This document shows positions 4,240 through 18,817 of a stretch of DNA of 23,904 nucleotides, piece after piece. The DNA lies in the IMG/VR virus record IMGVR_UViG_3300028388_000793, positions 1 to 23,904 of that record. One strand, written 5' to 3'. Position numbers and translations under genes: made by a program. The notes under the pieces were generated by a model. It saw nothing but the letters and a program-made list of their open reading frames with translations, was not told the origin of the DNA and searched no databases. Source of the stretch: a virus. Numbering within the stretch: position 1 is the first letter of the stretch; the number at the start of each line of letters is the position of its first letter.

Positions 4240-4280
4240 TTTGTAAGGAAATTTAAATTTCGTTATGAATCAGTGACTTA

Positions 4281-4288
4281 TATAAATA
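4281..4288 (+). promoter_or_regulatory. T4-type late promoter
   Basis: The exact octamer TATAAATA, the consensus recognised by the T4-family late sigma factor (gp55) with the sliding clamp, stands 27 nt before the GTG at 4315. Transcription would start about 6-7 nt downstream, leaving a short leader with the AGGAGG site. It is the best late-promoter match in the window and drives the only plus-strand genes. Confidence 0.8.
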
Positions 4289-4314
4289 GACTAGAGACCA
4301 CAGGAGGATGCAGC

Positions 4315-4578: not shown

Positions 4579-5399
4579 TGCTTTATAACGATAATCCCGA
4601 ATTAATAATCAGTTCTTTGACTGAAGGTACGCATTATTCTTCGGTCTATAATAAGTATCAGAAAATCGAGTTTAAAGAAAAACTCGAACAAAATATCGCA
4701 AAGATTGTAAAAGAAAAACATCTCTATCTAAACTATAAAACTGAGTTGAATAATGCGGTAGAAGAAATTATCAACAAGGTCCCATATTATCTAAACTTCC
4801 TTGCTTCTAGGAATTATCTTAATGTTTTATTTGTCGGATACTATGATGCTGGAAAGATTGACTGGTTAAGAAGATATAATTCGGACAGTTATCATGATGA
4901 AGTTCCGGAGGAGAGAAAACCTCTTGAAACCTTTATGGATTATAATACTCTCTTTCAATTTATACCAATAGTTTGTAAGGAATTTGGGTATAATATAAAT
5001 TTCAAGGTGCTAAGACCAGTTGAATCAAAACACAATATTCTTATGCATGATCTTTATGATTTTTTTATCCCAAATAATATTCAAACCTACGGACCGCAAT
5101 ACGTCCATGGCAAAGAAGTTACCATACAAAACTTTGATTATGATGCGATTGTATTCTTGGGTGTGCCTAGCAATTCAAATCAAGAGCAAATAAGCGAAAA
5201 TTGGTTTGGATTCGGTAGACACTCCTGCGAATTAATTGATTTTTACTATGGGCAAGAAAAAAGGTTCTCGAATTCCGTAGATATTTCTCCAGATATTGCA
5301 AGAACCATTTCTATCCGATCTGAATGGGATTATCATTCTAGAGTCACTGGTCTCTCTATAGACAATCGAATCCTAGAGAAAACTATCAGTATACTTTAG
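4578..5399 (+). CDS. Unknown phage protein, 273 aa, late gene
   Basis: No family is recognised. The N-terminal 80 residues are helical and charged; a hydrophobic beta-like stretch (YLNVLFVGYYDAGKIDWLRR) near residues 80-100 looks like the first strand of a Rossmann-type fold, and a similar strand (YDAIVFLGVPSNS) recurs near 190-205. These could belong to a nucleotide- or SAM-binding domain, but no diagnostic glycine motif is clear. It is transcribed with the preceding small protein from the late promoter at 4281. It converges on, and overlaps by 4 nt, the opposing gene ending at 5396. Alternatively it is a virion-associated protein. Confidence 0.65.
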   Translation: MLYNDNPELIISSLTEGTHYSSVYNKYQKIEFKEKLEQNIAKIVKEKHLYLNYKTELNNAVEEIINKVPYYLNFLASRNYLNVLFVGYYDAGKIDWLRRYNSDSYHDEVPEERKPLETFMDYNTLFQFIPIVCKEFGYNINFKVLRPVESKHNILMHDLYDFFIPNNIQTYGPQYVHGKEVTIQNFDYDAIVFLGVPSNSNQEQISENWFGFGRHSCELIDFYYGQEKRFSNSVDISPDIARTISIRSEWDYHSRVTGLSIDNRILEKTISIL

Positions 5400-5515
5400 A
5401 AAATTAATTGTGCTACAATGATGCAACCCAGAATTAAAAGAACTGAGGGGTAATTATAGAACACAACGACGAAATCATCTTTTATGTCAATAATCTTTTC
5501 TCTTAGATTAAACAT
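5396..5515 (-). CDS. Tiny single-pass membrane protein, 39 aa
   Basis: The ATG at 5515 has a strong Shine-Dalgarno (GAGGAGG, 6 nt spacing) located in the last codons of the upstream gene. The N-terminus is charged (MFNLREKIIDIKDDF) and residues about 17-39 form one hydrophobic segment ending at the C-terminus (YPSVLLILGCIIVAQLIF). It is predicted to be a C-tail membrane peptide. Its stop codon overlaps that of the convergent plus-strand gene. No family is recognised. Confidence 0.6.
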   Translation of the reverse strand: MFNLREKIIDIKDDFVVVFYNYPSVLLILGCIIVAQLIF

Positions 5516-6134
5516 TAGATGCCTCCTCTTTTTTTCTTGACACCACAATTTCAACATTTTTCGGAATTTGAATTTTGATATTCGAATGACCATGGTAAAG
5601 AACGAATTTTGTGTTTTTAAACTCTTGGAACATATAACTGAAAATTGGTCTCCAGTTATTCGCTAGACGATGAGTATTATTCGCACCTCTATCACTAGAG
5701 AGAATAAAATCAGTTGTGCTCCGTAGATTTAAATCAAATAGCGAATCGAATCCATAAATGTGTATCTCAGACGCTTTCATTACACGAGCAGCATAATCAA
5801 CTGCCATATGACCGCAACTGAAGTTTGTTGCAGTTTTAGCATATTTCGGAACATGCTGGTGAAATGCTTTTATGCAATGAGAATATTTAAGGTAAAAATC
5901 GGGTTTCATCTCCATCCATCTACGTGGACGAGTTCCAAGAATCCAATCATACATGTCAAGTTTTATCTCGCCGCGAGTCAGAGCGTCCATCATCTTGAAG
6001 TCTACCATGCAAGTTGCATAAACTTCTTTTCTCGGCAATTCAAAAGGAGGCATGTTACAAACTAGGAGTTTGCCGGGAGTTCCCCTTTTAAAAAAACTTG
6101 CATGGTCACCATTACCCAATACATTCGCTCTCAT
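5508..6134 (-). CDS. Sialyltransferase/DUF115-like protein, 208 aa (tentative)
   Basis: The N-terminus (MRANVLGNGDHASFFKRG) has the G-N-G-x-x-S/A shape of nucleotide-sugar-binding proteins of the sialyltransferase (GT42-like) and DUF115 groups. A central segment (GHMAVDYAARVMKASEIHIY, then GFDSLF) fits the family theme of a conserved helix followed by a strand and G-x-D. The fit is from motif shape only. A role in adding sugar to a phage or host glycan would match the island further downstream, although this gene is separated from it by nuclease and spanin genes. Other possibilities are an unknown Rossmann-like fold. It overlaps the thermonuclease gene by 4 nt (ATGA). Confidence 0.45.
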   Translation of the reverse strand: MRANVLGNGDHASFFKRGTPGKLLVCNMPPFELPRKEVYATCMVDFKMMDALTRGEIKLDMYDWILGTRPRRWMEMKPDFYLKYSHCIKAFHQHVPKYAKTATNFSCGHMAVDYAARVMKASEIHIYGFDSLFDLNLRSTTDFILSSDRGANNTHRLANNWRPIFSYMFQEFKNTKFVLYHGHSNIKIQIPKNVEIVVSRKKEEASNV

Positions 6135-6622: not shown

Positions 6623-6896
6623 CTTCGTCACTACCTTTGCCGAAAAAGTCATTCCAATCAGGAGTGTCGCCACCTACGACACGAACCCCAGGAATATCCC
6701 ATTCGTCTTCGTCAAAATATCTATCGCACATCTCAAGCATCTCGTGATACTCTGCCATCTTGGTCATTTCGCTTGTGACAGCTTCCATGATGTCAGGATG
6801 CTCACCGATACCCGAAGGATTCTCAAGGTAAACTTCAACGTTCATTCTATGTCTTTCTAGCTGTCCTTCCGCATAACTACGGATTGCGAACAGCAT
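6615..6896 (-). CDS. Conserved small phage protein, 93 aa
   Basis: The start at 6896 (MLFAIRSYAEGQLERHRMNV) gives an N-terminus like that of small T4-like phage proteins I recall, with the following EVYLENPSGIGEHPDIMEAV as the most conserved part. An alternative ATG at 6845 (MNVEVYLENP) is possible. The chosen start overlaps the o-spanin gene by 20 nt. The protein is acidic and helical with an EMTKMAEYHEMLEM stretch. Function unknown. Confidence 0.65.
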   Translation of the reverse strand: MLFAIRSYAEGQLERHRMNVEVYLENPSGIGEHPDIMEAVTSEMTKMAEYHEMLEMCDRYFDEDEWDIPGVRVVGGDTPDWNDFFGKGSDEDV

Positions 6897-7341
6897 TCTT
6901 TCCCGTCCCAGCTTCTGGTTCATTGGGTTTCTCCTCTTTGGGTGGCGCATCAAGTTCTCTATAGTAGACAACAACCTCTTTCAGTTGGTTTATATAGCGT
7001 CGCAGTTCCTGCATATTATACGCCATTAACTCATAGTCGCCAACCGACATGGCAATAAAGACAAGACCGCCATCGTTTTCTTTTCGAGTACGTTCTACAA
7101 ATTCATCAAAGTTCTTCTCTGAGACTACATACCACTTAGGGTCTCGGAGTTTGATTGCTCTCGGCATCGCCGGATGAACAATTGGAATCTTTACTTCTAC
7201 CGTCTTGATTTCCACAGGAATCGGTTTCAGCGGTTCTTCTTTTTTGCCAAAACCAAACTTGGGGAGACCAAAACTGGTGCATCCACTAATCGTCAATACT
7301 GTCAATAAAATCGCTGTCTTTTTCAATAGTCCTGAATACAT
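6877..7341 (-). CDS. Outer-membrane spanin-like lipoprotein (o-spanin), 154 aa
   Basis: From the ATG at 7341 (Shine-Dalgarno AAGGGGACG upstream) the protein starts with a basic tip and hydrophobic core, then a lipobox ISGC with Cys21 as the predicted lipidated residue after signal peptidase II cleavage. The mature part is short and contains a periplasmic helical stretch (ELRRYINQLKEVVVYYRELD) and a Pro/Glu-rich tail. Its first 56 nt overlap in another frame the end of the i-spanin-like gene 7286-7687, the arrangement of Rz/Rz1-type spanins that fuse inner and outer membranes at lysis. It is longer than lambda Rz1, nearer to unimolecular-length variants. No homology claim is made beyond architecture. 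Confidence 0.7.
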   Translation of the reverse strand: MYSGLLKKTAILLTVLTISGCTSFGLPKFGFGKKEEPLKPIPVEIKTVEVKIPIVHPAMPRAIKLRDPKWYVVSEKNFDEFVERTRKENDGGLVFIAMSVGDYELMAYNMQELRRYINQLKEVVVYYRELDAPPKEEKPNEPEAGTGKNAVRNP

Positions 7342-7687
7342 CACTCGTCCCCTTATTAATCCGTGTTTCAATCAACCCAGGTTTGGCAGCAGCAAGTTTC
7401 GCCAGATTGTGACGAGCGAAGATTGCCAGATACCGTTGTGCCTCTGCTTCAATCTCAGCATTCCGAGTAGAGAGTTTATTCAGCGACTCAGTAGTTTTCT
7501 GAAGATTGTTCTGAAGTGCATCAATCGTTTTCTGCTGTTCTGCCTCTCGCATCTCAAATGCATTTAGCAGGTTCTTCTGAGTTGCCAACTCAGCATCCTT
7601 TTCAGCAAGCGCCCGTTGAGTCTGCCCGTAATAGACATACCCCACAGCACTCACCACAATGAGGATTACAAATAAAAGTCTACTCAT
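7286..7687 (-). CDS. Inner-membrane spanin-like protein (i-spanin), 133 aa
   Basis: An N-terminal transmembrane anchor (residues about 3-20, LLFVILIVVSAVGYVYYG) is followed by a long charged periplasmic coiled coil (residues about 24-90, for example QKTIDALQNNLQKTTESLNK). This is the layout of Rz-like i-spanins. The o-spanin start lies inside its C-terminal codons, so the pair is embedded/overlapping. Together they should breach the outer membrane after the lysozyme has degraded the wall. The ATG overlaps the stop of the upstream glycosyltransferase-like gene by 8 nt. A tail-fibre or stalk role is less likely because of the adjacent lipoprotein. Confidence 0.7.
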   Translation of the reverse strand: MSRLLFVILIVVSAVGYVYYGQTQRALAEKDAELATQKNLLNAFEMREAEQQKTIDALQNNLQKTTESLNKLSTRNAEIEAEAQRYLAIFARHNLAKLAAAKPGLIETRINKGTSDVFRTIEKDSDFIDSIDD

Positions 7688-8351
7688 CTCTCATCATCTC
7701 CTTTATAAGTTCTTTACCTTTCTTTCCTGTATGGTGAATGATCAACGGGGTCTTAACAGCAATACCGTCCAGATAATCTAAACGTAGAGTATTATACTTG
7801 TGTGGCAAGGATTCAATCACTGCCATCTTAAGAATCTCATCCCCGTTCATCATCTTATATAGAACTTCCTGATCTCCTTGAATAGGGTTCTCAAGGCACT
7901 CATTTGCCCATGCTTTTAGAATATTCGGTTTACCTTCAAAGGCAACAACGCCAGAGTTATACCAGGTTCCGAGTTCTCCGCGTCGACGAGTCCAGGGACG
8001 ATCCTCGACCATTGAGAGTTTAAAGGGTTGAGTATAATCAAAGATTGCAGAGATATCTCCCATGACTTGACAATCAGTATCCAACCAGCAGACTTTATCA
8101 TATTGAATACCAAAAATTTCTTCTGTTGCAAGAAGCATTGCAAAGGGTTTCTTAAACCACCCCTTGGCATTACTCTTTAGAGTTTTGCACGCTCCAATCT
8201 CATTCTTACACCATTCACGCATTTCATCGGACATACCGAAGTCGATCGGAATTAAAGTGCTATCACGATTTTGTTTATGAAAATTCTCCCAGAACCAAGG
8301 GAGTTGCCACTCGGTGTTTTTGTCACATCCAGTAATGAAGAGGTTTTTCAT
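7680..8351 (-). CDS. GT8-like glycosyltransferase, 223 aa
   Basis: The ATG at 8351 is preferred over longer starts: it begins MKNLFITGCDKNTEWQLPWF. The key motif is a hydrophobic strand followed by D-x-D (CWLDTDCQV, Asp91 and Asp93), typical of metal-dependent, nucleotide-sugar-using GT-A enzymes. Further C-terminal are a YNSGVVAF segment and a DQEVL segment, the usual N-x-G and D-Q elements of GT8-like proteins. The donor and acceptor are unknown. First-pass assignment is glycosyltransferase with good certainty, family GT8-like less so. It is the distal gene of the island. Confidence 0.75.
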   Translation of the reverse strand: MKNLFITGCDKNTEWQLPWFWENFHKQNRDSTLIPIDFGMSDEMREWCKNEIGACKTLKSNAKGWFKKPFAMLLATEEIFGIQYDKVCWLDTDCQVMGDISAIFDYTQPFKLSMVEDRPWTRRRGELGTWYNSGVVAFEGKPNILKAWANECLENPIQGDQEVLYKMMNGDEILKMAVIESLPHKYNTLRLDYLDGIAVKTPLIIHHTGKKGKELIKEMMRDE

Positions 8352-8385
8352 AATTAATCCATTTTTTTTCAAGTTACAAATGCAT

Positions 8386-9033
8386 TTAAGCATTGATTAT
8401 CTTGTAATTACTGTCGTAGTTATGTTTAGCAAAGCATCCCGTTTCATTCTGAATCGTGGAAAACGAATCGTCCGCCATCGCGATAAAAGGATAATGTTCT
8501 TGCAACCAGGGAAAAGTATCCAGATTCAGAAAGATGTCTGTCGGTCTCGCTTTTTGTTTTGCTTTTTCGACCAGAAGTTTTGCTCCCTCTGGCGAAACTA
8601 TGTATGCATGCGCACCTGGAAAATAATTTTTTGTGGTTAATGGACCAACGCCGAAGTGCATTGGAGTTCTAAATTTTCCATAACTTGGCGCACCAATATT
8701 AATACAACCACGAGCACGAATTTTTGGCAAAGCATCTAGAACGATCGCATCGTGTTCAAATATAACGAAGGTCTGTTTCGTTCGAATGCACTCTTTCCAG
8801 AGATTATAGTGTGAAAGGAAAGCAGAGACACAATTTTCGTGGCGAGAATATTTTTCAAAGAATTTATCAGGATCGATACCTTCCTGCATAGCAAGTTGTA
8901 TCGGATTATCCTCGGGAGTGATTGCGGAAAACTTCTCAATCTTTACGCCAAATCGCTTTCCACTTCGAATACATCGCTCAGCAGAAGCAACCGATTGCTC
9001 ATTTTTTAGTATTGTTATAACATACGATTTCAA
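8386..9033 (-). CDS. GT25-like glycosyltransferase, 215 aa, TTG start
   Basis: The start is a TTG at 9033: a GAGGG Shine-Dalgarno stands 7 nt upstream, there is no in-frame ATG or GTG nearby, and the N-terminus MKSYVITILKNEQSVASAER fits GT25 enzymes. Other family features are the SAFLSHYNLWKECI helix and the strand ending EHD (FVIFEHDAI, Glu93-His94-Asp95) in place of the usual E-D-D. GT25 proteins add galactose or similar sugars in LPS biosynthesis. It resembles the gene at 9076-9804 (same SH..W..C and EHDA motifs), so the two are probably diverged duplicates. A candidate late promoter lies at 9066-9073. Confidence 0.75.
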   Translation of the reverse strand: MKSYVITILKNEQSVASAERCIRSGKRFGVKIEKFSAITPEDNPIQLAMQEGIDPDKFFEKYSRHENCVSAFLSHYNLWKECIRTKQTFVIFEHDAIVLDALPKIRARGCINIGAPSYGKFRTPMHFGVGPLTTKNYFPGAHAYIVSPEGAKLLVEKAKQKARPTDIFLNLDTFPWLQEHYPFIAMADDSFSTIQNETGCFAKHNYDSNYKIINA

Positions 9034-9065
9034 ACCATTGCCCTCATGTTCTATAGTTGTTATTT

Positions 9066-9073
9066 GATTTATA
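9066..9073 (-). promoter_or_regulatory. Candidate late promoter before the GT25-like gene
   Basis: The minus-strand octamer TATAAATC differs from the T4 late consensus TATAAATA only in the last base. It lies in the 42-nt intergenic gap, 33 nt before the TTG start at 9033. Position and spacing are suitable; activity is not shown. Confidence 0.5.
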
Positions 9074-9075
9074 TC

Positions 9076-9804
9076 TTACTTCGTGGTGCTTGATGCCGTT
9101 CCTTGCACTTTAGTATAGTAAGGATAAGAAACACGCAACCAAGGGAAGAACTGGCGACACATTAGGGCATCGTTTGGCCACATACCAACTTCTTCAACCT
9201 TTCTTAAAAGTTCCTTTGCTGCGAATGGTTTTATCACATAAGAAGAATTTCCAGGGAGTCCATTTGGTAGAGGAGGTTCTCCTGGTTGATCTATAATCGG
9301 AACTTCTTGAATCCCTTTCTTACCAAAAACAATCTCATGATAAATCGATGCCTTTCTTGTTGCACCTCTTGGATCATTGATACCTAGAATCCCTTTAAAC
9401 TTTTTTTCTACTTTGGGATAATCAAACTTTCTGATAAACAATGCGTCGTGCTCCAGGACCACCAGAGGATGCCCTAGAAGCAAACATTTCTCCCAGATTC
9501 TCATATGAGAGACCATGCAGGCAACAACCTTATTAAAGTCAACTGCAGGATAATGTTTTTTGTAGAGTCCTGTAGCAATATCAAGTCCATCGCCAGAAGC
9601 ATCTATTGGCCAATTCCATTTCAAATTTTTTGTATTGATTGTTTTAAAATCGTTTAGATGCTCTCGAATATCGATTGGAGTTGTTGCCTCAAATAGTTTA
9701 GGAGTAATTCTGGTCTGTGTTTCTTCAATACTTTCGATCAATCTAAATGCAGAATCCTTAGACTTCTCTACGTTTTGACTACAAATAACATACCCATTTA
9801 TCAT
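9076..9804 (-). CDS. GT25-like glycosyltransferase, 242 aa
   Basis: Shares with the preceding-in-map gene 8386-9033 the VSHMRIWEKCLLLGHPLVVL helix-strand and the EHDALF motif (Glu118-His119-Asp120). Here the N-terminus is less typical (MINGYVICSQNVEKSKDSAF), and an insert around residues 140-185 (GIQEVPIIDQPGEPPLPNGL) is not in the sibling. The ATG overlaps the stop of the sulfotransferase gene (ATGA). It probably transfers a sugar to a surface glycan; donor and acceptor are unknown. A GT25 relative with altered acidic motif is the main reading. Confidence 0.65.
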   Translation of the reverse strand: MINGYVICSQNVEKSKDSAFRLIESIEETQTRITPKLFEATTPIDIREHLNDFKTINTKNLKWNWPIDASGDGLDIATGLYKKHYPAVDFNKVVACMVSHMRIWEKCLLLGHPLVVLEHDALFIRKFDYPKVEKKFKGILGINDPRGATRKASIYHEIVFGKKGIQEVPIIDQPGEPPLPNGLPGNSSYVIKPFAAKELLRKVEEVGMWPNDALMCRQFFPWLRVSYPYYTKVQGTASSTTK

Positions 9805-10496
9805 AATTTATTCCAGTAGTTTTTGGTTGCTCCAGTGTCGAAGTCAAATCCCCAGTGTTCAATATCTTTCGCATACCAATCGGCAACAATTTGAATTGTC
9901 TCTGGTGTATAGACATCTCTGTATGAACCCTTGTTGAGTCCGGTCACGTTCCTTGGTTGAGGATCAGCAAGTAAACCAAAATAATCCTTGACGTCCTTGT
10001 TATATTCTTCAAAACGAAGAATGTCACACCGAACTGTATTATATTCATCCGAAACATGATCAAAGGCAGGATACCAACCACGGACTGCACGGTGCCACAT
10101 AAACTCAACAGCACCCCATTTATGCCTCTCCTCTAGGAATGCTTCAAAGGATGAGACATCTGCATAGTCATGATTACCGTACTGCGAGGAACCTTTCTCC
10201 ACTTCAATGACTTTTTTGGCAAAGAAATAGCGAGAGACAACTCGATCCCAAGGATTACGAACAATCGCAAAGGCACGATGCTTTTCTCGAAGGTCAACAT
10301 TTAAATCTCTCCAGCGAGCATGCTCGTGCCCGTGATGATCGCCAGTTGCTCGCATTTTCTGTTCAAGACGTCTTGTATAATCTTGAGAAATATGATTCTG
10401 TGGAATAGCAGAAATAATTTTATTTCGTAGATCCGGATGACGACGAATCGTCATTCCACCATTCTTTGGAATATGAACGAAAATTCTAGGACGCAT
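9801..10496 (-). CDS. Sulfotransferase-family protein, 231 aa
   Basis: Both PAPS-binding elements are visible. The 5'-phosphosulfate loop is FVHIPKNGGMTI (residues 6-17, Lys11, Gly13, Gly14). The 3'-phosphate motif is AIVRNPWDRVVSRYFF (residues 77-92, Arg80 and Ser88). This is the pattern of the Sulfotransfer_2 family that moves sulfate from PAPS to sugar hydroxyls. A catalytic His is likely among the His-rich stretch DHHGHEHARW (residues 53-62). The length is normal for a compact bacterial form. It overlaps the methyltransferase gene by 11 nt. In this context it most likely sulfates a glycan made or extended by the neighbouring transferases. Confidence 0.8.
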   Translation of the reverse strand: MRPRIFVHIPKNGGMTIRRHPDLRNKIISAIPQNHISQDYTRRLEQKMRATGDHHGHEHARWRDLNVDLREKHRAFAIVRNPWDRVVSRYFFAKKVIEVEKGSSQYGNHDYADVSSFEAFLEERHKWGAVEFMWHRAVRGWYPAFDHVSDEYNTVRCDILRFEEYNKDVKDYFGLLADPQPRNVTGLNKGSYRDVYTPETIQIVADWYAKDIEHWGFDFDTGATKNYWNKL

Positions 10497-11103
10497 GTTT
10501 TACTCGCAGAATGTAACTATCCGGAGCATTTGTCTTACGGAAATCGTAGTGCTTGACATCATGCTTTTCGAGTTCACTCATCATCTGGACGTGTCGTGTC
10601 ATATTATACAGTTGAGGGCGAGCATCGGTCCAGGGGTGGGATTTCATTCGATCAAGCATCCAAACATCTTCAATAAAATATGAACCGTCCTCTTTTAGAT
10701 AAGGAAACAGATTCTCAAACGTTAGAAGGTTTGACGCAGGATGGTGTGCGCCATCGTCAATAATAAAGTCGAATTTTATGCCTGTCCATTTTTTATTCAT
10801 CTTTGAATAAATGGCAGCATTGGTAGAATCAAACTTTAACCAGTCGACTCGACTACTGTTAAGTGCTTTTAGATCTTTGGGTTGAGTTCGAGTGAAGATG
10901 TCAATCGTATAAATGTTTGCATGAGGGAAGTATTCTTCCCAGGCAAGAATGCTCTCTCCTCGAAAGCATCCTACCTCCAGTATATTAACTTCTTCTTGAT
11001 TCCGAACAGGAGCAAAGTATTTTTCATAGCAACGATCATACCCATGCTTTTTACCTTTGTCACAATCAAACTTATCAAAACATTCTCTAAGAGTTTTGTT
11101 CAT
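10486..11103 (-). CDS. Class I SAM-dependent methyltransferase, 205 aa
   Basis: Motif I is VNILEVGCFRGESILAWEEY (residues 39-58), followed by a strand ending IYTIDIF (acidic residue that binds the SAM ribose) and later FDFIIDDGAHHPASNL, a strand with Asp pair and His pair seen in macrocin-O-methyltransferase/cephalosporin-hydroxylase-like sugar methyltransferases. These suggest O-methylation of a sugar. The ATG at 11103 is chosen over a TTG two codons upstream. It overlaps the upstream GT gene by 17 nt. Substrate is inferred from neighbours only. Confidence 0.8.
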   Translation of the reverse strand: MNKTLRECFDKFDCDKGKKHGYDRCYEKYFAPVRNQEEVNILEVGCFRGESILAWEEYFPHANIYTIDIFTRTQPKDLKALNSSRVDWLKFDSTNAAIYSKMNKKWTGIKFDFIIDDGAHHPASNLLTFENLFPYLKEDGSYFIEDVWMLDRMKSHPWTDARPQLYNMTRHVQMMSELEKHDVKHYDFRKTNAPDSYILRVKHAS

Positions 11104-11887
11104 ATCCAATCGCTTCCATTAACTGTTTAACATCTTCGCCACGAGAAGGCAGTTTGTCTTTTAAGAAGAAGTGTACGAAATGACAATAATCAATGTTCGT
11201 GTTAGCAGTATATAGTCCATTCCATTTCCAGTGCATTTTCTTGACAGGCACTTGATGTTTCTTCACAAAATAATTCAGGAGAGTCTGATCAGTGCTCCAC
11301 TTCCATGCTCCAACTCCATCAACGAAGTCCTTAAACTCTGCTCGCATCAGAAATTGTTGAGGCGATTCCCCTTTAAGGAAGGGTTTAAACTTCTTACAGT
11401 TGAGAAGGATCATGCCCATATTGAAAAACTCAAGACTTTGTCCATCATAGTTGAAATCTACTTTGGGGTGAAGTCTCGAATACTGCATTGCCGAGTACTG
11501 AATAATTTTCTTTTTGTACTCAGGAGTAATCGGCATTTCTCTTTCGACCACTGCCCCAAATGCTTTATCTGTACCAAAGTCTTCGAAGATATTTGGCGCG
11601 TCTTCTCGAATGAAAATGTCGGCATCAATAATAGCAATCTGGTCCCAGTCATTCAGATATTCAAACGCATTCTCTTTCTCATAGATCGGAAGATATCCGC
11701 CATACTTCTCATATGACTCTCGACTACGATTGCTATTGAAAGGATCTGGGCGAATACGCAGGACGGGTTCTCTTTGCACATAATGGTAAATGTTGTGCAG
11801 TTTGCAGTAATAAGAAACGCTTTGGATGCATTTCTCGTAGAGTTTAGAAGGTTTCCCAACGGCAACCTGATAAATCATTCTCTTCAT
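11087..11887 (-). CDS. GT8-like glycosyltransferase, 266 aa
   Basis: The DxD motif sits in QIAIIDADIFIREDAPNIF (Asp88 and Asp90). A later FFNMGMILLNCKKFKPFL and a STDQTLLNYF segment match the N-x-G-x-x-x-x-N and D-Q elements of GT8-like transferases. The N-terminal RMIYQVAVGKPSKLYEKCIQ is compatible with the first Rossmann strand and helix. No membrane segment, so it is likely cytoplasmic. It is coupled to the radical SAM gene (ATGA) and the methyltransferase gene by overlap. Acceptor unknown. Confidence 0.75.
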   Translation of the reverse strand: MKRMIYQVAVGKPSKLYEKCIQSVSYYCKLHNIYHYVQREPVLRIRPDPFNSNRSRESYEKYGGYLPIYEKENAFEYLNDWDQIAIIDADIFIREDAPNIFEDFGTDKAFGAVVEREMPITPEYKKKIIQYSAMQYSRLHPKVDFNYDGQSLEFFNMGMILLNCKKFKPFLKGESPQQFLMRAEFKDFVDGVGAWKWSTDQTLLNYFVKKHQVPVKKMHWKWNGLYTANTNIDYCHFVHFFLKDKLPSRGEDVKQLMEAIGYEQNS

Positions 11888-12852
11888 ATTCTATACTCAT
11901 TCAAGTCAAATTCTGTGCCATGCATTTTATATAGATCACGATCATGGTTAGTATATACCAAAACTTCAGGATCATCAATCAGAAAATCACAGTCATGACA
12001 GTAGGAAGGATAGTTCCCTGTTCGGTGTCCTTCTCTTAATGCTTCGTATTCGGGACCTTCGACAATCTCCTGTATTGACATTTCGCTCGTGTGCCCAAGG
12101 ACTGCTTCGGAATCCCTTCCCAGTACTTGACAGCAAGGAGCAACTGCGCCGCGCTTACCGTCGAGACCGCCAGCACGTATAACAACATCAGGACTAAATG
12201 GTCTGCCACAAGTTTTTACTTTACCCTCTCTCTTGTAAGTTGGGTCGTATACGCCACTCCAGTTGTGAAGTTTCCAAACTTCTGTCTTCACACCTAGCGC
12301 AGTAACCAGTTCTTTGTACCTATTTAGTTGCAACTCTTGTTCGGCAGGATCTTCTTCGGTAATCAAATGATAAGTTGCAACTACACAATCACTACCAACT
12401 GCCTCTACATATCTTTGCATGTCAAAAATATTTTTGCAGATGGTATCAAAGTTACCACCTTTGGTATTGTACATCCACTGATTATATTCATCGCGTGTTG
12501 AACCAATAAACGAAAAGCGAAAAAAGTCTAGACCAGCATCAACGCATTTCATCATGTATTCGCCAGACATACGGAGACCATTCGAAAACGCAAATGTTTT
12601 TGCATTGTACTTTTTGACGATTTTGATGTATTCGTATAACTGGCGATTCAAGGTAGGTTCGCCCGAGCCTTCTAGATTGACAACACGAAGTCCATGTTTA
12701 GCGCAGTCTCTTACATTATCTTCGAATTCAAGCAGAGACATTCTGGTAATAAATTCTTTCTCTCTACCACCAGTGCGTTTGTCTTGAGGGCACATAGAGC
12801 AAGAATAATTACAACCACCTTGGACTTCAATAACTGCTCTGTCAATTTTCAT
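11884..12852 (-). CDS. Radical SAM enzyme with SPASM-like C-terminus, 322 aa
   Basis: The CxxxCxxC cluster motif is CNYSCSMC (Cys14, Cys18, Cys21), binding the 4Fe-4S cluster that cleaves SAM. NLEGSGEPTLNRQLYEYI (residues 59-76) is the GGE-like motif that binds the SAM amino group. The C-terminal region has further cysteines at 215, 240, 241, 285 and 288 (TCGRP, APCCQV, YCHDCDF), consistent with a SPASM auxiliary-cluster domain. SPASM enzymes modify peptides or sugars, including dehydrogenation and epimerisation. A role in altering a sugar or a protein in this island is an inference. The ATG at 12852 is used; the TTG upstream lies in the preceding gene's stop region. Confidence 0.8.
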   Translation of the reverse strand: MKIDRAVIEVQGGCNYSCSMCPQDKRTGGREKEFITRMSLLEFEDNVRDCAKHGLRVVNLEGSGEPTLNRQLYEYIKIVKKYNAKTFAFSNGLRMSGEYMMKCVDAGLDFFRFSFIGSTRDEYNQWMYNTKGGNFDTICKNIFDMQRYVEAVGSDCVVATYHLITEEDPAEQELQLNRYKELVTALGVKTEVWKLHNWSGVYDPTYKREGKVKTCGRPFSPDVVIRAGGLDGKRGAVAPCCQVLGRDSEAVLGHTSEMSIQEIVEGPEYEALREGHRTGNYPSYCHDCDFLIDDPEVLVYTNHDRDLYKMHGTEFDLNEYRI

Positions 12853-12854
12853 GA

Positions 12855-13673
12855 TCAATTCCTATAGATATTTTCCAAACTATCGAAGTACTCAATTGCC
12901 TTTGTATTCGAATGCTTGAGAAGTTTCTCAAAATTTTTACACCACCAGAATATATTGCTCTCCTGATTAACGTCGTGAGATGCTCTTATGGCATTCGGGG
13001 TATGGTATTTAGTAACACCCTCTTCGCTACAAACAATCATTGGAGTTGCAAGATTCTTTGCTATATAATGCCACATTCCATCATAGCAGATTACGAGTCT
13101 TGCAGTCGCAATATGATAAAGTGCCTCTCGTATTGGTGTTCTGTATGTCAATTCAGTAATATTCATTCCCTGGCGACTGACGTTCTTTATTATACCTTCC
13201 CAATCCGAATTTGTCAACTTTCTTTTCCATCTTCTAGGAATTTCGGCATTAAATAATGGACGCCAAATCACCACCTTCTTTTGGTCTCTTGGTTTAAAAG
13301 TGTTTTTTCGAAATAACCAAGAATTTTCTGGAGCAGGTTGTCCTAACTGGTCGCTAAATGCACCAGATTCAAACCAAAAACGGTTCTTGTTCTTTTTTCC
13401 CTGCTCCTCTGGAGGATAATAGTATCTTCCTCGTGAGTTAAACTCATGAGTAATTATAACGTCTTCTTGTCTCTGGTAAAAGTTATGAATATAGTGCATT
13501 CGCTCGATGATTGTTTCAGGGTCTTCGAAGTGATGGAGGTGGTGTTCCGAATGGTCCCAATGCATTTCTAAGACCACAGGGACACCACTTGTCCATGCCC
13601 TCATATGGCAACTATTCAATGCCCACATGAAATCACCGACTCCAGGTGTTCCCCTCCATGTCACCTTTTCCAT
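12855..13673 (-). CDS. GT9/heptosyltransferase-like glycosyltransferase, 272 aa
   Basis: The N-terminus MEKVTWRGTPGVGDFMWALN matches the G-D-x-x-x-x-x-P/A start of GT9-like transferases, and the C-terminal part has the typical ICYDGMWHYIAKNLATPMIV, where the S-D/D-G helix contacts the nucleotide-sugar, then EEGVTKYHTPNAI. The central segment is rich in Trp, Phe and His. From memory similar proteins are present in T4-like marine phages. GT9 enzymes normally move ADP-heptose to LPS; here donor and acceptor are unknown. It is separated by 17 nt from the EF-hand membrane protein gene. Confidence 0.65.
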   Translation of the reverse strand: MEKVTWRGTPGVGDFMWALNSCHMRAWTSGVPVVLEMHWDHSEHHLHHFEDPETIIERMHYIHNFYQRQEDVIITHEFNSRGRYYYPPEEQGKKNKNRFWFESGAFSDQLGQPAPENSWLFRKNTFKPRDQKKVVIWRPLFNAEIPRRWKRKLTNSDWEGIIKNVSRQGMNITELTYRTPIREALYHIATARLVICYDGMWHYIAKNLATPMIVCSEEGVTKYHTPNAIRASHDVNQESNIFWWCKNFEKLLKHSNTKAIEYFDSLENIYRN

Positions 13674-13690
13674 AATCTACCCCAGAGAAA

Positions 13691-14014
13691 TTACTTTTTA
13701 CCGTTACTGTATGCTTGACCGCCAAAGAATGCAGCAACAATAGCAGCAACAGAAACAAAGTATGTAGCAGCCATGTCGCCAAGAATATCGGCTGCCTTTA
13801 CATGTCCAGTCCAGTCTGCCATCCAAACAGCAAATGGATAGAGAAGTAAACCAAACAGCGCAAACCAGGTCATCTTTCGTTGAGCATCGCGCATGGCATC
13901 TGCATCTTCGAGTTCCTTACGCTTAAACTCAAGATACATCGCTTTCTCTTGATCGTCTACTTTACCATCACCATTTACGTCTGCAGGATGGTAACCTTTA
14001 TTTTCTTCTGTCAT
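13691..14014 (-). CDS. EF-hand membrane protein, holin candidate, 107 aa
   Basis: A canonical calcium-binding EF-hand loop lies at residues 12-23 (DVNGDGKVDDQE, ligands at loop positions 1, 3, 5, 7, 9, 12). It is followed by a charged helix (residues 24-47) and two hydrophobic segments at about 49-67 (TWFALFGLLLYPFAVWMADW) and 82-101 (AATYFVSVAAIVAAFFGG), with a short basic tail. Similar proteins are known to me from T4-like phages of alphaproteobacteria or marine hosts without a proven role. Two transmembrane segments, small size and the presence of spanins and a lysozyme in the same block make a holin plausible; calcium-gated action would be new. A candidate late promoter precedes it (14079-14086). 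Confidence 0.7.
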   Translation of the reverse strand: MTEENKGYHPADVNGDGKVDDQEKAMYLEFKRKELEDADAMRDAQRKMTWFALFGLLLYPFAVWMADWTGHVKAADILGDMAATYFVSVAAIVAAFFGGQAYSNGKK

Positions 14015-14059
14015 TAGAGTGTCCTTTTGGTTTCATAATATAGAACACATAGACATAAT

Positions 14060-15556
14060 TTAAAACACTTTGACTTTATATTTATTTTCCCATAGACGAG
14101 CATCGAGTTCATCGTTAACGATAGGTCGCCCACGTATATTTAGTGACGTATTTAATAGCATGGGAACACCGGTCCGTTCATAATACTCTTCTACAATCTT
14201 ACGAAAAATAGAGGGGCAGTCTGGTTGCAATAATTGGACTCGGGCAGTTCCGTCAACATGCGTCACTGAGGAGTAGTCATGGAGTGCCTTTGAGGTGTAC
14301 TGCATATACTCGTTCATAGGTCCGGAGAAATACTTGTTCGCGTGCTCAGCGAGCACTGCAGGAGCGAAGGGGCGGTATTTATGCCTTCTCTTAATCTCAT
14401 TGACCGTGTCTTTCACATCATATCTTACATCCGCAATCAGAGAACGATTACCAAGAGCACGAGGACCAAACTCTGCTCTACCATTGGCAATGCCACATAC
14501 TTTGTATTTAAGAATATGATCTACAATTTCTCTCGGATTGATTTCACGTTGAATATCGTATCCGAGGTAAGGATTCCATTTTAAGTGAGTCCCGCCAGTT
14601 TTCTCTGCCCAGGTCTTAGCAGCTGCTCCGAGAGCAGAACCGGAGTCTGTCGGAGCGATTGCGATATGCACTTCATCGAACATTTCAAAAATCTTAGAAT
14701 TTACCACAACGTTTTGAGCACAACCGCCAGAGTAAACTAATTTACTCCCGTATTTTCTTGCTTCGGTCATGATATTCAAAATCGCATACTCTGCAAACTT
14801 CTGAACGCTCGCAGCACAATCTTCTGGACTGTATTTCTTAGTTGCTTCTTTTATGAATTTTATAAGTTCTTTCTTTTTATTAGAACGATGACAACCGGGA
14901 GAATAAATATCAAGTCCGTACTCCAATTCTGCTGAAGTATTGGACATTTCATGAAACCAATCAATCAACCAATCACCAAACTTGTCTTCGCCATAAGAAG
15001 AGAGTCCCATAACAACATATTCGTCTTCAAGTGGTCTTAGACCAAGATACTTTGTAATGCTCGTATAGGGAATACCGACAGACTTTGGGGCATGCCACTG
15101 TTTCTTTAAATCAAACTTGGAGTCGAATACACATGCTGTCTGCACTTCTCCAACCCCATCAATAGAGACCATAACAGTATCTTTTGATGATTCCCAGGGA
15201 CGAGTATAGAACGCTGCAGCGCAATGACTCTCATGATGAAGGTGATATGCATCGTAGATCACCGAATCATGATAAGGTACGTTGATCAGGTCTTCCTCTT
15301 TGTAATTACGGAGCGACTCCTTGGGAGGCATGACTGATGGATCTATTCCTCTTGCTTGTCTTTTTAATTTGTGGTCTTCGTAGAAAACGAAATAATCGTC
15401 TTCGCTCGTCAATTCCCACATTTCATCAGGAATTATCGCATCATTTTTCTTTTTAGAATACCTTTCTGCTTGTGATGCGTAAGAGACTGTTCCGTCTTCT
15501 TCTATAATCGCAATTGCTGCGTCGTGATAGTATTCAGAAAAACCAACTATTCGCAT
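14060..15556 (-). CDS. Carbamoyltransferase, NodU/TobZ family, 498 aa
   Basis: The N-terminus (MRIVGFSEYYHDAAIAIIEE) is the first sugar-kinase-fold strand with His11. The HxxxH metal site is HHESHCAAAF (residues 107-116), and GVGEVQTACVF follows. A glycine-rich YSGGCAQNVVVNSKIF and the C-terminal signature FGPRALGNRSLIADVR are diagnostic of the NodU/TobZ carbamoyltransferases, which transfer carbamoyl from carbamoyl phosphate through carbamoyladenylate to a sugar hydroxyl. The length is near that of compact phage versions and somewhat below the roughly 550-600 aa bacterial enzymes. It overlaps the oxygenase gene by 10 nt. A likely substrate is a sugar made in this island. Confidence 0.85.
   Translation of the reverse strand: MRIVGFSEYYHDAAIAIIEEDGTVSYASQAERYSKKKNDAIIPDEMWELTSEDDYFVFYEDHKLKRQARGIDPSVMPPKESLRNYKEEDLINVPYHDSVIYDAYHLHHESHCAAAFYTRPWESSKDTVMVSIDGVGEVQTACVFDSKFDLKKQWHAPKSVGIPYTSITKYLGLRPLEDEYVVMGLSSYGEDKFGDWLIDWFHEMSNTSAELEYGLDIYSPGCHRSNKKKELIKFIKEATKKYSPEDCAASVQKFAEYAILNIMTEARKYGSKLVYSGGCAQNVVVNSKIFEMFDEVHIAIAPTDSGSALGAAAKTWAEKTGGTHLKWNPYLGYDIQREINPREIVDHILKYKVCGIANGRAEFGPRALGNRSLIADVRYDVKDTVNEIKRRHKYRPFAPAVLAEHANKYFSGPMNEYMQYTSKALHDYSSVTHVDGTARVQLLQPDCPSIFRKIVEEYYERTGVPMLLNTSLNIRGRPIVNDELDARLWENKYKVKVF
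14079..14086 (-). promoter_or_regulatory. Candidate late promoter for the EF-hand membrane protein gene
   Basis: The minus-strand octamer AATAAATA differs from the T4 late consensus only in the first base, and T4-like marine phages often use NATAAATA. It lies just inside the end of the carbamoyltransferase gene, about 65 nt before the start at 14014, which leaves room for a normal leader. Confidence 0.5.
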
Positions 15557-16044
15557 GAGAACATATCCCAATTAAATCCAATGATAATTTTTTCTCCGTT
15601 ATTTATTACTGGACTACGGTGAGGAACCATAGAAGGAAATACTACCAAATCTCCTTCATAAATATTTTCATCAAAAAGATTGTAACGAAACTGAGTAGCA
15701 GAGGAAGGTTCTGGTAGTTTTAACATATAAACTCCAGACATGTTGCACCCTTCGTGTGAGTGCCAACCGAATGTTGCACCATCAGAATAAGAAGCAAACC
15801 AGATATTTTTAATTTGAAAACTTCGGAAGGACCAACTTTTTGCGAAATGTTTGAGGTAAGGGTGCAGGGTAGTTTTAATCTTTTTTTGATATGGACCCTG
15901 ATAGTCAATATCATAATCTGAGTGTGTCATGGTAGTATAGAAAGCATCCGGAACTTTTAATATGATGCTTTCTATCTCTTTTATAATTTCAAATTTTATT
16001 TCATTATGTTCTTCGATTGTATACTTTCGAATAAATCTTGCCAT
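15547..16044 (-). CDS. 2OG-Fe(II) oxygenase-type protein, 165 aa
   Basis: The double-stranded beta-helix signature is present: GWHSHEGCNMSGVYMLK (H-x-H type metal site near residues 94-96), then YEGDLVVFPSMVPHRSP with the distal His, and GEKIIIGFN for the 2-oxoglutarate contact. This resembles the 2OG-FeII_Oxy_5 group common in phages. It would hydroxylate a protein or small molecule, possibly a sugar intermediate in this operon. The ATG follows the HAD gene stop directly. Confidence 0.7.
   Translation of the reverse strand: MARFIRKYTIEEHNEIKFEIIKEIESIILKVPDAFYTTMTHSDYDIDYQGPYQKKIKTTLHPYLKHFAKSWSFRSFQIKNIWFASYSDGATFGWHSHEGCNMSGVYMLKLPEPSSATQFRYNLFDENIYEGDLVVFPSMVPHRSPVINNGEKIIIGFNWDMFSCE
15600..15607 (-). 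promoter_or_regulatory. Candidate late promoter for the carbamoyltransferase gene
   Basis: A second minus-strand AATAAATA octamer lies inside the oxygenase gene, 44 nt before the carbamoyltransferase start at 15556. Spacing fits a late promoter, but a single 8-mer in AT-rich coding sequence can arise by chance. Confidence 0.35.
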
Positions 16045-16045
16045 A

Positions 16046-16618
16046 CTAGGTTACGTAGTCATAAATTTCTTTCCAATTTTTCATCATAGGGAATCGAGTT
16101 TCATGCATGTTATAGGCATGTTCCATTATAACGCTGTCAAGTCCCACTTTCTCTCCGGCAACAGCATTCTCAATTTTATCTTCAACCCAGAGATATCCAG
16201 AACCTTCATATTCTTTTAATGTTTCGTCTTTATCTGCTCCGGTGTCCAGATAAATGAAACGATCAAAAACAGTTTTTCCAAAAAGTTTTTTTAGGTTTTT
16301 GGTGCGAAGTCTTTGTGCATTTCGGTCAATACTTAATGAGGTAATCACATGAAATACAAACCCTTGTTCTTTATGTAGTTTCTGAACATATTGAATGGCG
16401 TCCCTAAGAGGAGGTAAGAATCCAACAGCAGCACTTTCATTAAAGAATCGGATCATTTCCTTCGACTGTTTATAATCCATGTCAAACGATTCGTGGATTG
16501 CATACTTCATCGTTTTCATTTTATGTCCACGTTCTTGCATCCAGATGTTAAAGGCATATCCCCAATTCAATAAAACCCCGTCAACATCGGTGAGAATTAC
16601 TTTCTCTAGATCATTCAT
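16046..16618 (-). CDS. HAD-superfamily hydrolase, 190 aa
   Basis: The nucleophile motif is ILTDVDGVLLNWG (Asp11 and Asp13), then a second motif HVITSLS (Ser/Thr), and a third region LWVEDKIENAVAGEKVGLDS with the acidic residues that bind magnesium. The cap region is helical and Met/Lys-rich. HAD phosphatases of this size remove phosphate from sugars or nucleotides; in a glycan island a sugar-phosphate phosphatase is the natural reading, with a 5'-nucleotidase or polynucleotide phosphatase as alternatives. The ATG overlaps the stop of the upstream GT gene. Confidence 0.75.
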   Translation of the reverse strand: MNDLEKVILTDVDGVLLNWGYAFNIWMQERGHKMKTMKYAIHESFDMDYKQSKEMIRFFNESAAVGFLPPLRDAIQYVQKLHKEQGFVFHVITSLSIDRNAQRLRTKNLKKLFGKTVFDRFIYLDTGADKDETLKEYEGSGYLWVEDKIENAVAGEKVGLDSVIMEHAYNMHETRFPMMKNWKEIYDYVT

Positions 16619-17442
16619 AAATCACCATTAAAAATTTTAAAGAGACCGCGATGATATTGATCAATCATCACGATTTTATTTTCTCCACCAGTATAGTGGA
16701 GAAAATTAGATTGCATTCCTCTACCTTCAACGTCATCATAATGAGTTGGAGTATCATTCCATGTTTGATCGATACTCTCAATATCAAAGTTGTGTTTTAC
16801 CAGTTGCGACGAAATAAAAGGTTGATCGTTTATAATACTCATATGCATTTTGGGAGTATCATACAACCAGGACTTCCAATCATCAAAACGTTCTCTTGCT
16901 TTGAGTCTTGCTTCTCGAGTCCAAACAAGAACGCCAGTATTGAAGATTGTAATTCTAGAAGGATGATTCGGGGGAAGAACTGGGACTATAGGACAATTGT
17001 GATACTCAAACTTTTTAAGGTAGTTTTCATAATCTTTTTTGTTATAGTCCCAAGTATTATATCCGCCGTCTCGGTCGGTCCGGATATCGCTTTCATAGAC
17101 ACCAAACACTTCTGCTTCACTTTGATCAAATATATTCTCAGAAGTGTTGCAGACAATGTCTGTGTCTAGAAAAAGCACTTTGTCGTACTTATCAAAAGAC
17201 TCATCATAAATCACACGAAGGCATTCGAACAAATAAGATACAGGATTGTCATGCCCTTTCGTGAGAACTTGTTCTTCAGAAAAGAGGTAATCGCAATCTA
17301 ATTTTTTTGCATAAATCTCGAAGGATCTCCGGGAGATGTCTGCCATCTCTCGGTATACATCAGACCGTTTTCTTCCCCCAAGTTCTCCTCTTTCGTCTAC
17401 AGTATCACTCAAAATTATGTACTGAAAGATTAGATTTTTCAT
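16615..17442 (-). CDS. GT8-like glycosyltransferase, 275 aa
   Basis: DxD motif in DKVLFLDTDIVC (Asp93 and Asp95), preceded by a YDKV strand. A later FNTGVLVWTREARLKARERF and a NDQPFISSQL segment supply the N-x-G and D-Q elements expected of GT8-like transferases, and LHYTGG near the C-terminus is the usual terminal His motif. The ATG at 17442 is used; a GTG four codons upstream is possible. The first 38 nt overlap the small basic gene 17405-17566. It is the first gene of the glycan island in transcription order. Confidence 0.75.
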   Translation of the reverse strand: MKNLIFQYIILSDTVDERGELGGRKRSDVYREMADISRRSFEIYAKKLDCDYLFSEEQVLTKGHDNPVSYLFECLRVIYDESFDKYDKVLFLDTDIVCNTSENIFDQSEAEVFGVYESDIRTDRDGGYNTWDYNKKDYENYLKKFEYHNCPIVPVLPPNHPSRITIFNTGVLVWTREARLKARERFDDWKSWLYDTPKMHMSIINDQPFISSQLVKHNFDIESIDQTWNDTPTHYDDVEGRGMQSNFLHYTGGENKIVMIDQYHRGLFKIFNGDL

Positions 17443-17572: not shown

Positions 17573-17662
17573 CTACCAGGTCTCCTTGATCCATTCGTCG
17601 TAAGGTAAAAAAGTTTGTTTTTTAAATGACCAAAATTTACAATTATAAATGGGATGCTTCAT
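17573..17662 (-). CDS. Tiny protein, 29 aa
   Basis: Starts MKHPIYNCKFWSFKKQTFLP with a strong Shine-Dalgarno (GGAGG, 4-5 nt spacing) at the end of the lysozyme gene, and its ATG overlaps the lysozyme TGA (ATGA). It is basic and aromatic, with no membrane segment. Position and coupling favour a real gene, but the short length keeps confidence moderate. Confidence 0.45.
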   Translation of the reverse strand: MKHPIYNCKFWSFKKQTFLPYDEWIKETW

Positions 17663-18102
17663 ACTGCCTCCAATCGCTCCATTAGACGCTCCGCTCGATT
17701 GGTCACCTGCTTATGCCATCGAGAATCGCGTCCTTCAACAGCAGCAGTTGCCCAGTCGCCTGCTTCAATTGCTGCATTGAATTTCTTAAACCCAGAAAGA
17801 CGAGGACGTCCCATGTTGAACATCATGTTCACGAGCACTTCTTGAACCTCGCCAGGAAGTCCCTCCCATGCCTCTCCGTAGAGGACAACGCATTCAGAGA
17901 TCGAAACCTCTAGGTCTTTCTCGAATGCTTCCCAGACGCGCTCCTCGGAAACCTCAGTGCCTACTTCGCACCCGTGCTCGGGATCACTTTCGACGATAAG
18001 ATGTCCGACACCAAACGTAGGCAAACCAAGGTGGTCAAGGTAGACTTCATATTTGACACCTTCGTCAATCTTAAGTTGTTCGAAAACAGATTCTTTATTC
18101 AT
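17659..18102 (-). CDS. e: T4-type lysozyme (GH24 endolysin), 147 aa
   Basis: The catalytic triad follows T4 lysozyme spacing: Glu14 in KIDEGVKYEVY, Asp23 in LDHLG and Thr29 in PTFGVGHL, corresponding to T4 Glu11, Asp20 and Thr26. The C-terminal NMGRPRLSGFKKFNAAIEAG and DSRWHKQVTNRAERL match the T4 and P22-type core. It cuts the glycosidic bond of peptidoglycan. No signal peptide is present, so it needs a holin to reach the wall. It overlaps phoH by 8 nt and is coupled to the tiny gene downstream. Its composition is GC-richer than the glycan island. Confidence 0.9.
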   Translation of the reverse strand: MNKESVFEQLKIDEGVKYEVYLDHLGLPTFGVGHLIVESDPEHGCEVGTEVSEERVWEAFEKDLEVSISECVVLYGEAWEGLPGEVQEVLVNMMFNMGRPRLSGFKKFNAAIEAGDWATAAVEGRDSRWHKQVTNRAERLMERLEAV

Positions 18103-18817
18103 CTTCGGTTGTAACTCCTAACATCTCTTTTGTCATGATATAGTCTCGCACAAAGTCAGAGCGAACTATATCTGCCCAGGTGAAGTTAATAACAGAGAAC
18201 TTTGTCATGTGTTCTGCAATCTTTAGAAACTTACCAAGTCCTTGTTTGTCACTTCGTTTTGTGAAGTCTGATTGATAGTAATCTCCACAAAAAATTATTC
18301 TACAATTCTGACCAACACGAGTAATTATACTATCCAACTCGTGGAAAGTCAAGTTTTGCATTTCATCAATTACAATCACTGCGTCGCTAATCGTCACACC
18401 TCTTATATATGAGGTTGACATAAACTCCATTGAACCTGCCGCAGTCAGTCGATCATAAGCATCATGCGTATCAAACAACTCTGCGCAAATTGATTTATAT
18501 GGTCCAGTGTATGCTGAAATCTTCTCTTCAAGCGATCCAGGGAGAAACCCAATTTCTCTGGTTGGTACAATAGAACGAACAATCACTACTTTATCGTAGA
18601 AAGTAGATTTCTCAAGAACGTCTTCAAGAGCAAGATAGAGAGCAGTGAATGTTTTTCCTGTCCCTGCTGTACCGCACATGACAAGATGATGTCCGTCATC
18701 CCATGCTTGATAGACTAATTCTTGACTTTTTGTGATAGGTTCAAATGATTTGAGGTTGTCAATACGAAGTTTGACAGGAGGTTTGGATCCTAATGGTTGC
18801 AATTCTTTTTTCTTCAT
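18095..18817 (-). CDS. phoH: PhoH-like ATPase, 240 aa
   Basis: A Walker A motif GTAGTGKT (residues 49-56) and a Walker B motif VIVIDEMQN (Asp151-Glu152) flank the RSIVPTREIGFLPGSLEEKI region (81-100) typical of the PhoH superfamily. FCGDYYQSDF is the sensor/helicase-like motif. The N-terminus is shorter than that of bacterial PhoH and lacks a PIN domain. It is common in marine phages and possibly an RNA helicase or phosphate-related protein; its exact role is not established. Coupled by ATGA to the upstream gene. Confidence 0.9.
   Translation of the reverse strand: MKKKELQPLGSKPPVKLRIDNLKSFEPITKSQELVYQAWDDGHHLVMCGTAGTGKTFTALYLALEDVLEKSTFYDKVVIVRSIVPTREIGFLPGSLEEKISAYTGPYKSICAELFDTHDAYDRLTAAGSMEFMSTSYIRGVTISDAVIVIDEMQNLTFHELDSIITRVGQNCRIIFCGDYYQSDFTKRSDKQGLGKFLKIAEHMTKFSVINFTWADIVRSDFVRDYIMTKEMLGVTTEDE

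Follow-up and report, generated by a model that had tools for sequence, protein, structure and literature searches.

A conserved island of glycan-building and glycan-decorating genes in a marine T4-like phage, with a possible role in virion glycosylation

The virus fragment IMGVR_UViG_3300028388_000793 (23,904 bases; the whole record was analysed and is here called the window, and all coordinates are window positions) carries at 7680-17442 a compact island of glycosyltransferase (GT) and sugar-decorating genes, which recurs in the same order in related phages. The island comprises six GTs, a sulfotransferase, a methyltransferase, a radical S-adenosylmethionine (SAM) enzyme, an O-carbamoyltransferase, a 2-oxoglutarate (2OG)-Fe(II) oxygenase and an NT5C-like protein of the haloacid dehalogenase (HAD) fold, all encoded on the minus strand and spaced by -17 to +45 bases from one gene to the next. 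We tentatively propose that it encodes a late cytosolic pathway glycosylating the virion proteins of the phage, a reading that is preferred here at less than even confidence. A sequence-only reading had named these enzymes, and open reading frames (ORFs), Pfam matches and structure models placed all of them at its positions on the single minus strand. The limits and membership that it gave held for the enzyme set and were amended at two points: the ORF at 13691-14014, inside the island, encodes a protein with two transmembrane (TM) segments rather than an enzyme of glycan metabolism, and a seventh GT-like gene lies outside at 5508-6134.

Relatives were collected by three scans of viral contigs, for the carbamoyltransferase, the radical SAM enzyme and the sulfotransferase, which gave about 140 loci, 90 of them non-redundant. 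The gene order of the window was kept in 2920 of 3039 gene pairs (96%) across the 90 loci. Against the nearest relative, the ratio of nonsynonymous to synonymous change was 0.11-0.43 as pN/pS where synonymous sites were saturated and 0.04-0.16 as dN/dS elsewhere, values that indicate purifying selection on the island genes. The decay in close relatives that the sequence-only reading had envisaged was not seen; conserved genes, purifying selection and invariant catalytic motifs were found instead. Because the loci were fetched through the carbamoyltransferase, radical SAM and sulfotransferase genes, these three are over-counted when all loci are taken together. Among the 16 loci that span the stretch from PhoH/lysozyme to the sialyltransferase-like gene at 5508-6134, GT8_B, both GT25 genes and GT_C were each present in 15, the sulfotransferase in 13, the methyltransferase in 12, and the radical SAM, GT9-like and HAD genes in 11 each; the carbamoyltransferase and GT8_A were each confined to 3 loci, the 2OG oxygenase to 1.

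Enzymes of the island

Three of the GTs matched the Pfam GT8 family (Glyco_transf_8). The gene GT8_A (16618-17442), in which a DTD motif is visible, scored above the cut-off (E = 5e-8), and the other two matches were just below it (1.3e-4, and 2.4e-4 for GT_C at 7680-8351, which also has a DTD motif). In GT8_B (11087-11887, DAD motif), which among the core genes has the widest occurrence (80 of 90 loci), GT8 was recognised in 15 of 21 relatives. The DxD motifs are invariant in relatives, as D88xD90 of GT8_B and D91xD93 of GT_C. Two adjacent genes belong to family GT25, GT25_A (9076-9804, Pfam 3.7e-9) and GT25_B (8386-9033, Pfam 6e-11), the pair scoring 43 and 37.2 bits against a gathering score of 24; GT25_B also matched a GT25 protein in the PDB (3e-6), and its EHD motif is invariant in relatives.

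The sixth transferase (12855-13673) had been called GT9-like, a name to which its structure model lends some support. No Pfam GT match was obtained with the window protein or with any of 39 relatives. Its AlphaFold model (pLDDT 93) has a GT-B fold, with WaaC (Z 11.4), TibC (Z 11.2) and WaaF (Z 11.0) as the top full-length matches in VIA; the GT9 heptosyltransferases lie at Z 10.6-11.4 over 203-218 residues, and other GT-B enzymes follow at 10.2. The gene at 5508-6134, also on the minus strand, has by modelled fold (AlphaFold pLDDT 90) a GT42 sialyltransferase/Maf-like structure: VIA aligned it with Maf (5mu5, Z 11.2 over 166 residues) and CstII (Z 10.2 over 173-187), the next unrelated fold being at Z 5, while Foldseek alone gave no confident match for this model. 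It was counted as a seventh GT because of this fold and because it is a frequent companion of the island (43 of 90 loci).

Among the decorating enzymes, the carbamoyltransferase (14060-15556) was assigned to the NodU/NovN/GdmN/TobZ family. Both Pfam domains are present, the Kae1-like N domain (PF02543, 2e-33) and the YrdC-like C domain (PF16861, 1.5e-43), and PDB profiles gave NovN (1e-61), GdmN (6e-59, a full-length match) and TobZ (5e-38). Residues H107, H108 and H111 are invariant in 19 relatives and align with the metal-site HHxxH of the novobiocin enzyme; by its domains and this motif, the protein is predicted to be of the NodU/TobZ type. The radical SAM enzyme (11884-12852) matched Radical_SAM (5e-13) and a SPASM-type region (3e-8), and C14, C18 and C21 of its CxxxCxxC motif are invariant in 40 sequences. 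Only C215, C240, C241, C285 and C288 are conserved in the C-terminal part of these sequences, and none later. A full SPASM domain, with two auxiliary clusters and seven cysteines (CX2CX5CX3C-gap-C), was thus rejected, the later cysteines being absent. The arrangement C215-X19-G235-X4-C240 plus C285-X2-C288 is the twitch signature of one auxiliary cluster, with a spacer that exceeds the usual 9-15. The best PDB match of the auxiliary region was the cyclitol dehydrogenase BtrN (E = 1.4e-6).

The sulfotransferase (9801-10496) resembles carbohydrate sulfotransferases that use 3'-phosphoadenosine 5'-phosphosulfate (PAPS) (Pfam Sulfotransfer_2, 4e-8; phrog_3347, 3e-9), and its 5'-phosphosulfate loop (HIPKNGGMT) and 3'-phosphate motif (RNPWxxVxSR) are invariant in 21 relatives. 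The SAM-dependent methyltransferase (10486-11103) was recognised by Pfam at about 1e-5 (Methyltransf_31, 5.6e-6; Methyltransf_24, 1.8e-5). The 2OG-Fe(II) oxygenase (15547-16044; Pfam 2OG-FeII_Oxy_5, 7e-8) is rare, being present in 5 of 90 loci. The HAD protein (16046-16618) had been read as a sugar-modifying phosphatase; the HAD fold stood, but the protein resembles a nucleotidase (Pfam NT5C, 1.7e-4; phrog_420, 3e-33), and any link to sugars is conjectural.

Lineage, variable module and late promoters

The window was assigned to a T4-like phage because it contains ribonucleotide reductase (RNR) beta, PhoH, lysozyme and spanin-like genes (ORF list and Pfam). Island-bearing relatives encode a T4-type gp23, for which the closest named sequences are those of Phage C48C1 (72%), Methylophilales phage Melnitz (62%) and pelagiphage HTVC008M (60%), and these affinities place it in a marine, non-cyanophage T4-like lineage. 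The fullest relatives are C48C1 (complete), G002 (taken as circular since gp23 runs across its ends), G001 and G003. A DNA-level search with the whole island against 50,697 phage records gave no match. In bacterial genomes the radical SAM profile gave two matches only (66-74% identical), and the host context cannot be read from either because both look like phage contigs binned in metagenome-assembled genomes (MAGs). Phage-like contigs were noted inside a Sphingobacteriales MAG and a Euryarchaeota MAG (L154 and L155), apparently by misbinning.

The ends of the island are fixed, and relatives insert differing modules between GT8_B and the sulfotransferase/methyltransferase pair. Such modules are a set of GATase C26, cupin, P-loop and methyltransferase genes; a transporter, TctA, together with a TctC-like protein; a HAD-NTP transferase fusion; and a second radical SAM enzyme with a hexapeptide acyltransferase, a PIG-L deacetylase and a NAD epimerase. 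Exchange also reaches single genes: in L013-L018 the radical SAM enzyme is 89-95% identical to that of the window and the adjacent GT9 only 37-42%, a pattern that indicates recombination of individual genes within the island. A constant frame whose decorations can be swapped would be expected of an exposed glycan under diversifying pressure.

The tripartite tricarboxylate transporter TctA and its TctC-like binding protein (L098:6493-8951, L019:13262-15798, L020 and L043) form a phage-borne nutrient uptake system within the islands. The recurrent module at L072:5649-9379 and L142:6419-9998 begins, behind a late promoter, with a conserved protein of about 232 amino acids, after which come GATase C26, a cupin, a pair of P-loop proteins and a methyltransferase; together with the HAD-NTP transferase fusion (L098:11371-12711) it presumably resembles capsular phosphoramidate synthesis.

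Of 56 base permutations compared upstream of island genes in the relatives, the T4 late motif TATAAATA has rank 1, with a density of 0.345 per kb there versus 0.025 per kb in gene bodies. Its occurrences are concentrated at two places, ahead of the first variable-module gene after GT8_B (14 of 54) and ahead of the gene for the small membrane protein (5 of 30 distinct upstream sequences). Since this motif evidence comes from relatives, late expression in the phage of the window would follow by analogy. In T4-like phages, genes expressed late mostly encode virion and lysis proteins.

The island is interleaved with lysis genes on the same strand. A spanin-like pair (6877-7687; inner 7286-7687, outer 6877-7344), with one N-terminal TM segment and a lipobox-like signal, overlaps its downstream end and was found there again in L071 and L072. 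Inside the island, the two-TM protein at 13691-14014 is small, EF-hand-like and, by hydropathy, putatively holin-like, and its homologue in Melnitz (E = 1e-55) lies beside baseplate genes. Phage lysozyme and PhoH genes (17659-18817; Pfam Phage_lysozyme 9e-10, PhoH 3e-43) are syntenic anchors upstream. Beyond the island, a two-gene unit at 4273-5399 runs on the plus strand with all neighbours opposite, and its first gene is conserved at 73-80% in the same place in relatives.

Acceptor of the glycan

From the enzyme families we infer the order of reactions and the individual substrates. The GT8, GT25, GT9-like and GT42/Maf-like transferases would add sugars from nucleotide-sugar donors, mostly those of the host, to form a short oligosaccharide; the radical SAM enzyme may oxidise or epimerise a carbon of a sugar, and hydroxyls would be capped by three enzymes, the methyltransferase, the sulfotransferase (from PAPS) and the carbamoyltransferase (from carbamoyl phosphate and ATP). 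The acceptor would most likely be a phage virion protein, with assembly in the host cytosol during infection. The dependence on host donors proposed from the sequence does not hold generally, as certain genes for donors or sugar modification are found in relatives, within the variable module or at other sites (NAD epimerase, HAD-NTP transferase fusion, PIG-L, UDP-galactopyranose mutase and an annotated UDP-glucose dehydrogenase).

The absence of an export gene, also part of the sequence-only reading, was confirmed in the window and in the near-complete relatives. The flippase family PF01943 and the O-antigen ligase-polymerase family PF04932 had no match in 8 relatives in which positive controls matched, and a Wzx/Wzy O-antigen pathway was rejected, with no flippase, polymerase or ligase family present. 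Near-complete relatives are almost devoid of polytopic proteins, and TctA transporters are the only ones within islands. Because there is no exporter, the acceptor should be reachable from the cytosol, as a protein or as a lipid A-core that host MsbA could flip. The gene content suggests that the glycan is assembled in the cytosol, with export by the host at most.

A virion protein is favoured because of the late timing, the cytosolic assembly, the interleaving with lysis genes and the Maf- and TibC-like folds. The nearest folds of two GTs include enzymes that glycosylate proteins, Maf for 5508-6134 and TibC for the GT9-like gene; Maf acts on flagellin and TibC on an autotransporter. In mycobacteriophages, virion glycosylation by phage-encoded enzymes is established (Freeman 2023, cited in PMC11256854). 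Several points weigh against a virion acceptor. No acceptor protein was identified: a collagen-like acceptor for the GT25/oxygenase pair was rejected, as G-X-Y repeats occur in one relative ORF only and were not found in C48C1, G001 or G002. The exact late-promoter motif was not found in the island of the window, where near-motifs were not above chance. The remaining points are those that favour lipopolysaccharide (LPS).

It is a substantial possibility, ranked second by a small margin, that the operon remodels the host LPS or lipooligosaccharide core, with soluble transferases extending or capping lipid A-core at the cytosolic face before MsbA flips it; such remodelling would block re-adsorption of progeny to debris or superinfection. 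By family, GT8, GT9, GT25 and GT42-like enzymes are also the classic transferases of the LPS core, forming its outer core set. The GT9-like model ties in Z with WaaC as well as TibC, and with WaaF, and the lack of an exporter is compatible with an LPS target because host MsbA could export the modified core. The variable central module resembles the diversification of surface antigens, and late timing would suit receptor masking before lysis. In Pseudomonas, WapO carbamoylates the core heptose (PMC8005017). Against this, remodelling so late would be of little gain to a lytic phage, and the operon encodes no enzyme that is specific to lipid A or bound to the membrane.

It is improbable that the operon makes a free or small-molecule glycan, or that its target is a protein of the host, flagellin or pilin for instance. 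Enzymes with Maf-like and TibC-like folds modify surface proteins of bacteria, and BtrN-like radical SAM enzymes and GdmN/NovN-like carbamoyltransferases have known roles in the tailoring of antibiotics, but the late timing in relatives better suits virion or lysis functions, and we know of no phage use for such products.

The sequence-only reading had listed virion proteins, LPS and hypermodified DNA as acceptors; the first two are still in play, and DNA is disfavoured. The survey of DNA-modification genes rests on the relatives, the window's own genome being a 24-kb fragment. Neither thymidylate synthase nor dCMP hydroxymethylase was found in C48C1, G001, G002 or G003; thymidylate synthase matched in 2 of 16 relatives, the shorter contigs G007 and G013, a TET/JBP oxygenase in 1 of 16 (C48C1), and a C5-methylase in none of the 16. 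A phage carbamoyltransferase acting on 5-hydroxymethylcytosine (5hmC) is known, and its gene adjoins thymidylate synthase, whereas the carbamoyltransferases of unmodified contigs adjoin GTs (PMC8670742). Given this pairing and the lack of a hydroxymethyl-pyrimidine route in the fullest relatives, glycosylated and carbamoylated 5-hydroxymethyl pyrimidines are a very unlikely product, even with the TET/JBP oxygenase of C48C1, since the operon is complete without such genes. In C48C1 itself (L011:4584-8031; OQ984149 49583-53030), the TET/JBP oxygenase, a 344-amino-acid protein and UDP-galactopyranose mutase stand in a row, a candidate cassette for TET-primed DNA galactofuranosylation present in 1 of 16 relatives only.

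A loose set of genes that were gained by horizontal transfer and share no common product, which mosaic swaps such as those of L013-L018 might suggest, is least probable of all, since orthologues in the same order in 90 loci and purifying selection show that the island is not a chance assembly, and catalytic residues are invariant.

If virion glycosylation is correct, it would extend to T4-like marine phages at a complexity known mainly from giant viruses. A somewhat less probable extension of this reading is that, in an uncultured and widespread marine T4-like clade, the virion coat carries an oligosaccharide with sulfate, carbamoyl and methyl groups, produced by the phages' own conserved pathway in the cytosol, and that the swappable module alters this glycan from phage to phage in a serotype-like manner. 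With LPS as the target, the island would exemplify the rebuilding of a host surface by a lytic phage. Either way, the conserved order and variable module provide a concrete gene set for asking why ocean phages carry many sugar genes.

Comparison with known systems

Virion glycosylation in mycobacteriophages is like the proposed pathway in its phage-encoded transferases and virion acceptor; its gene set as described is far simpler, and sulfation, carbamoylation and a radical SAM step are not mentioned in that source (PMC11256854). LPS core biosynthesis (waa genes and WapO of Pseudomonas) shares GT families and heptose O-carbamoylation with the island (PMC8005017). It differs in being chromosomal and in that sulfotransferase and radical SAM enzymes are not part of it, and the phage island has no heptose kinases or synthesis of Kdo (3-deoxy-D-manno-octulosonic acid) or heptose. 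The 5hmC phages found by MetaGPA likewise have a NodU/TobZ-type carbamoyltransferase, paired with thymidylate synthase rather than with GTs as in the window (PMC8670742).

Among phages, glycan clusters in T4-like marine genomes are already known, as are LPS genes in cyanophages, for which record annotations were also compared. Many cyanophages carry a related carbamoyltransferase, with an identity of about 25-32% in cyanophages and pelagiphages. The HTVC008M stretch, a distant version of the island, occupies the same slot, between RNR beta and lysozyme/PhoH, and has homologues of the carbamoyltransferase (3.5e-60), GT_C (2.6e-48), the radical SAM enzyme (4e-8) and the methyltransferase; orthologues of the sulfotransferase, GT8_B, GT9 and GT25 were not found there. 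In Melnitz no counterpart was seen of the core transferases, the radical SAM enzyme, the carbamoyltransferase or the sulfotransferase; by record annotation, its stretch L176:2732-8877 (MZ577097) holds curli assembly-like genes along with an adenylate/guanylate cyclase.

Phage C48C1 (OQ984149, 156 kb, Kyanoviridae) is the sole named record with a close version of the island. It shares, in unchanged order, GT8_A, HAD, the carbamoyltransferase, GT9, radical SAM, SNase and the sialyltransferase-like gene, with enzymes 53-67% identical; unlike the window, it has no orthologues of the half of the island with GT8_B, the sulfotransferase and GT25, and it carries TET/JBP and UDP-galactopyranose mutase elsewhere. 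Of the named phage records, a single one has the radical SAM enzyme, and no more than two, both distant and uncultured, have the sulfotransferase. The core of sulfotransferase, GT8_B, GT9 and GT25 in fixed order is a new variant of the glycan clusters of marine T4-like phages.

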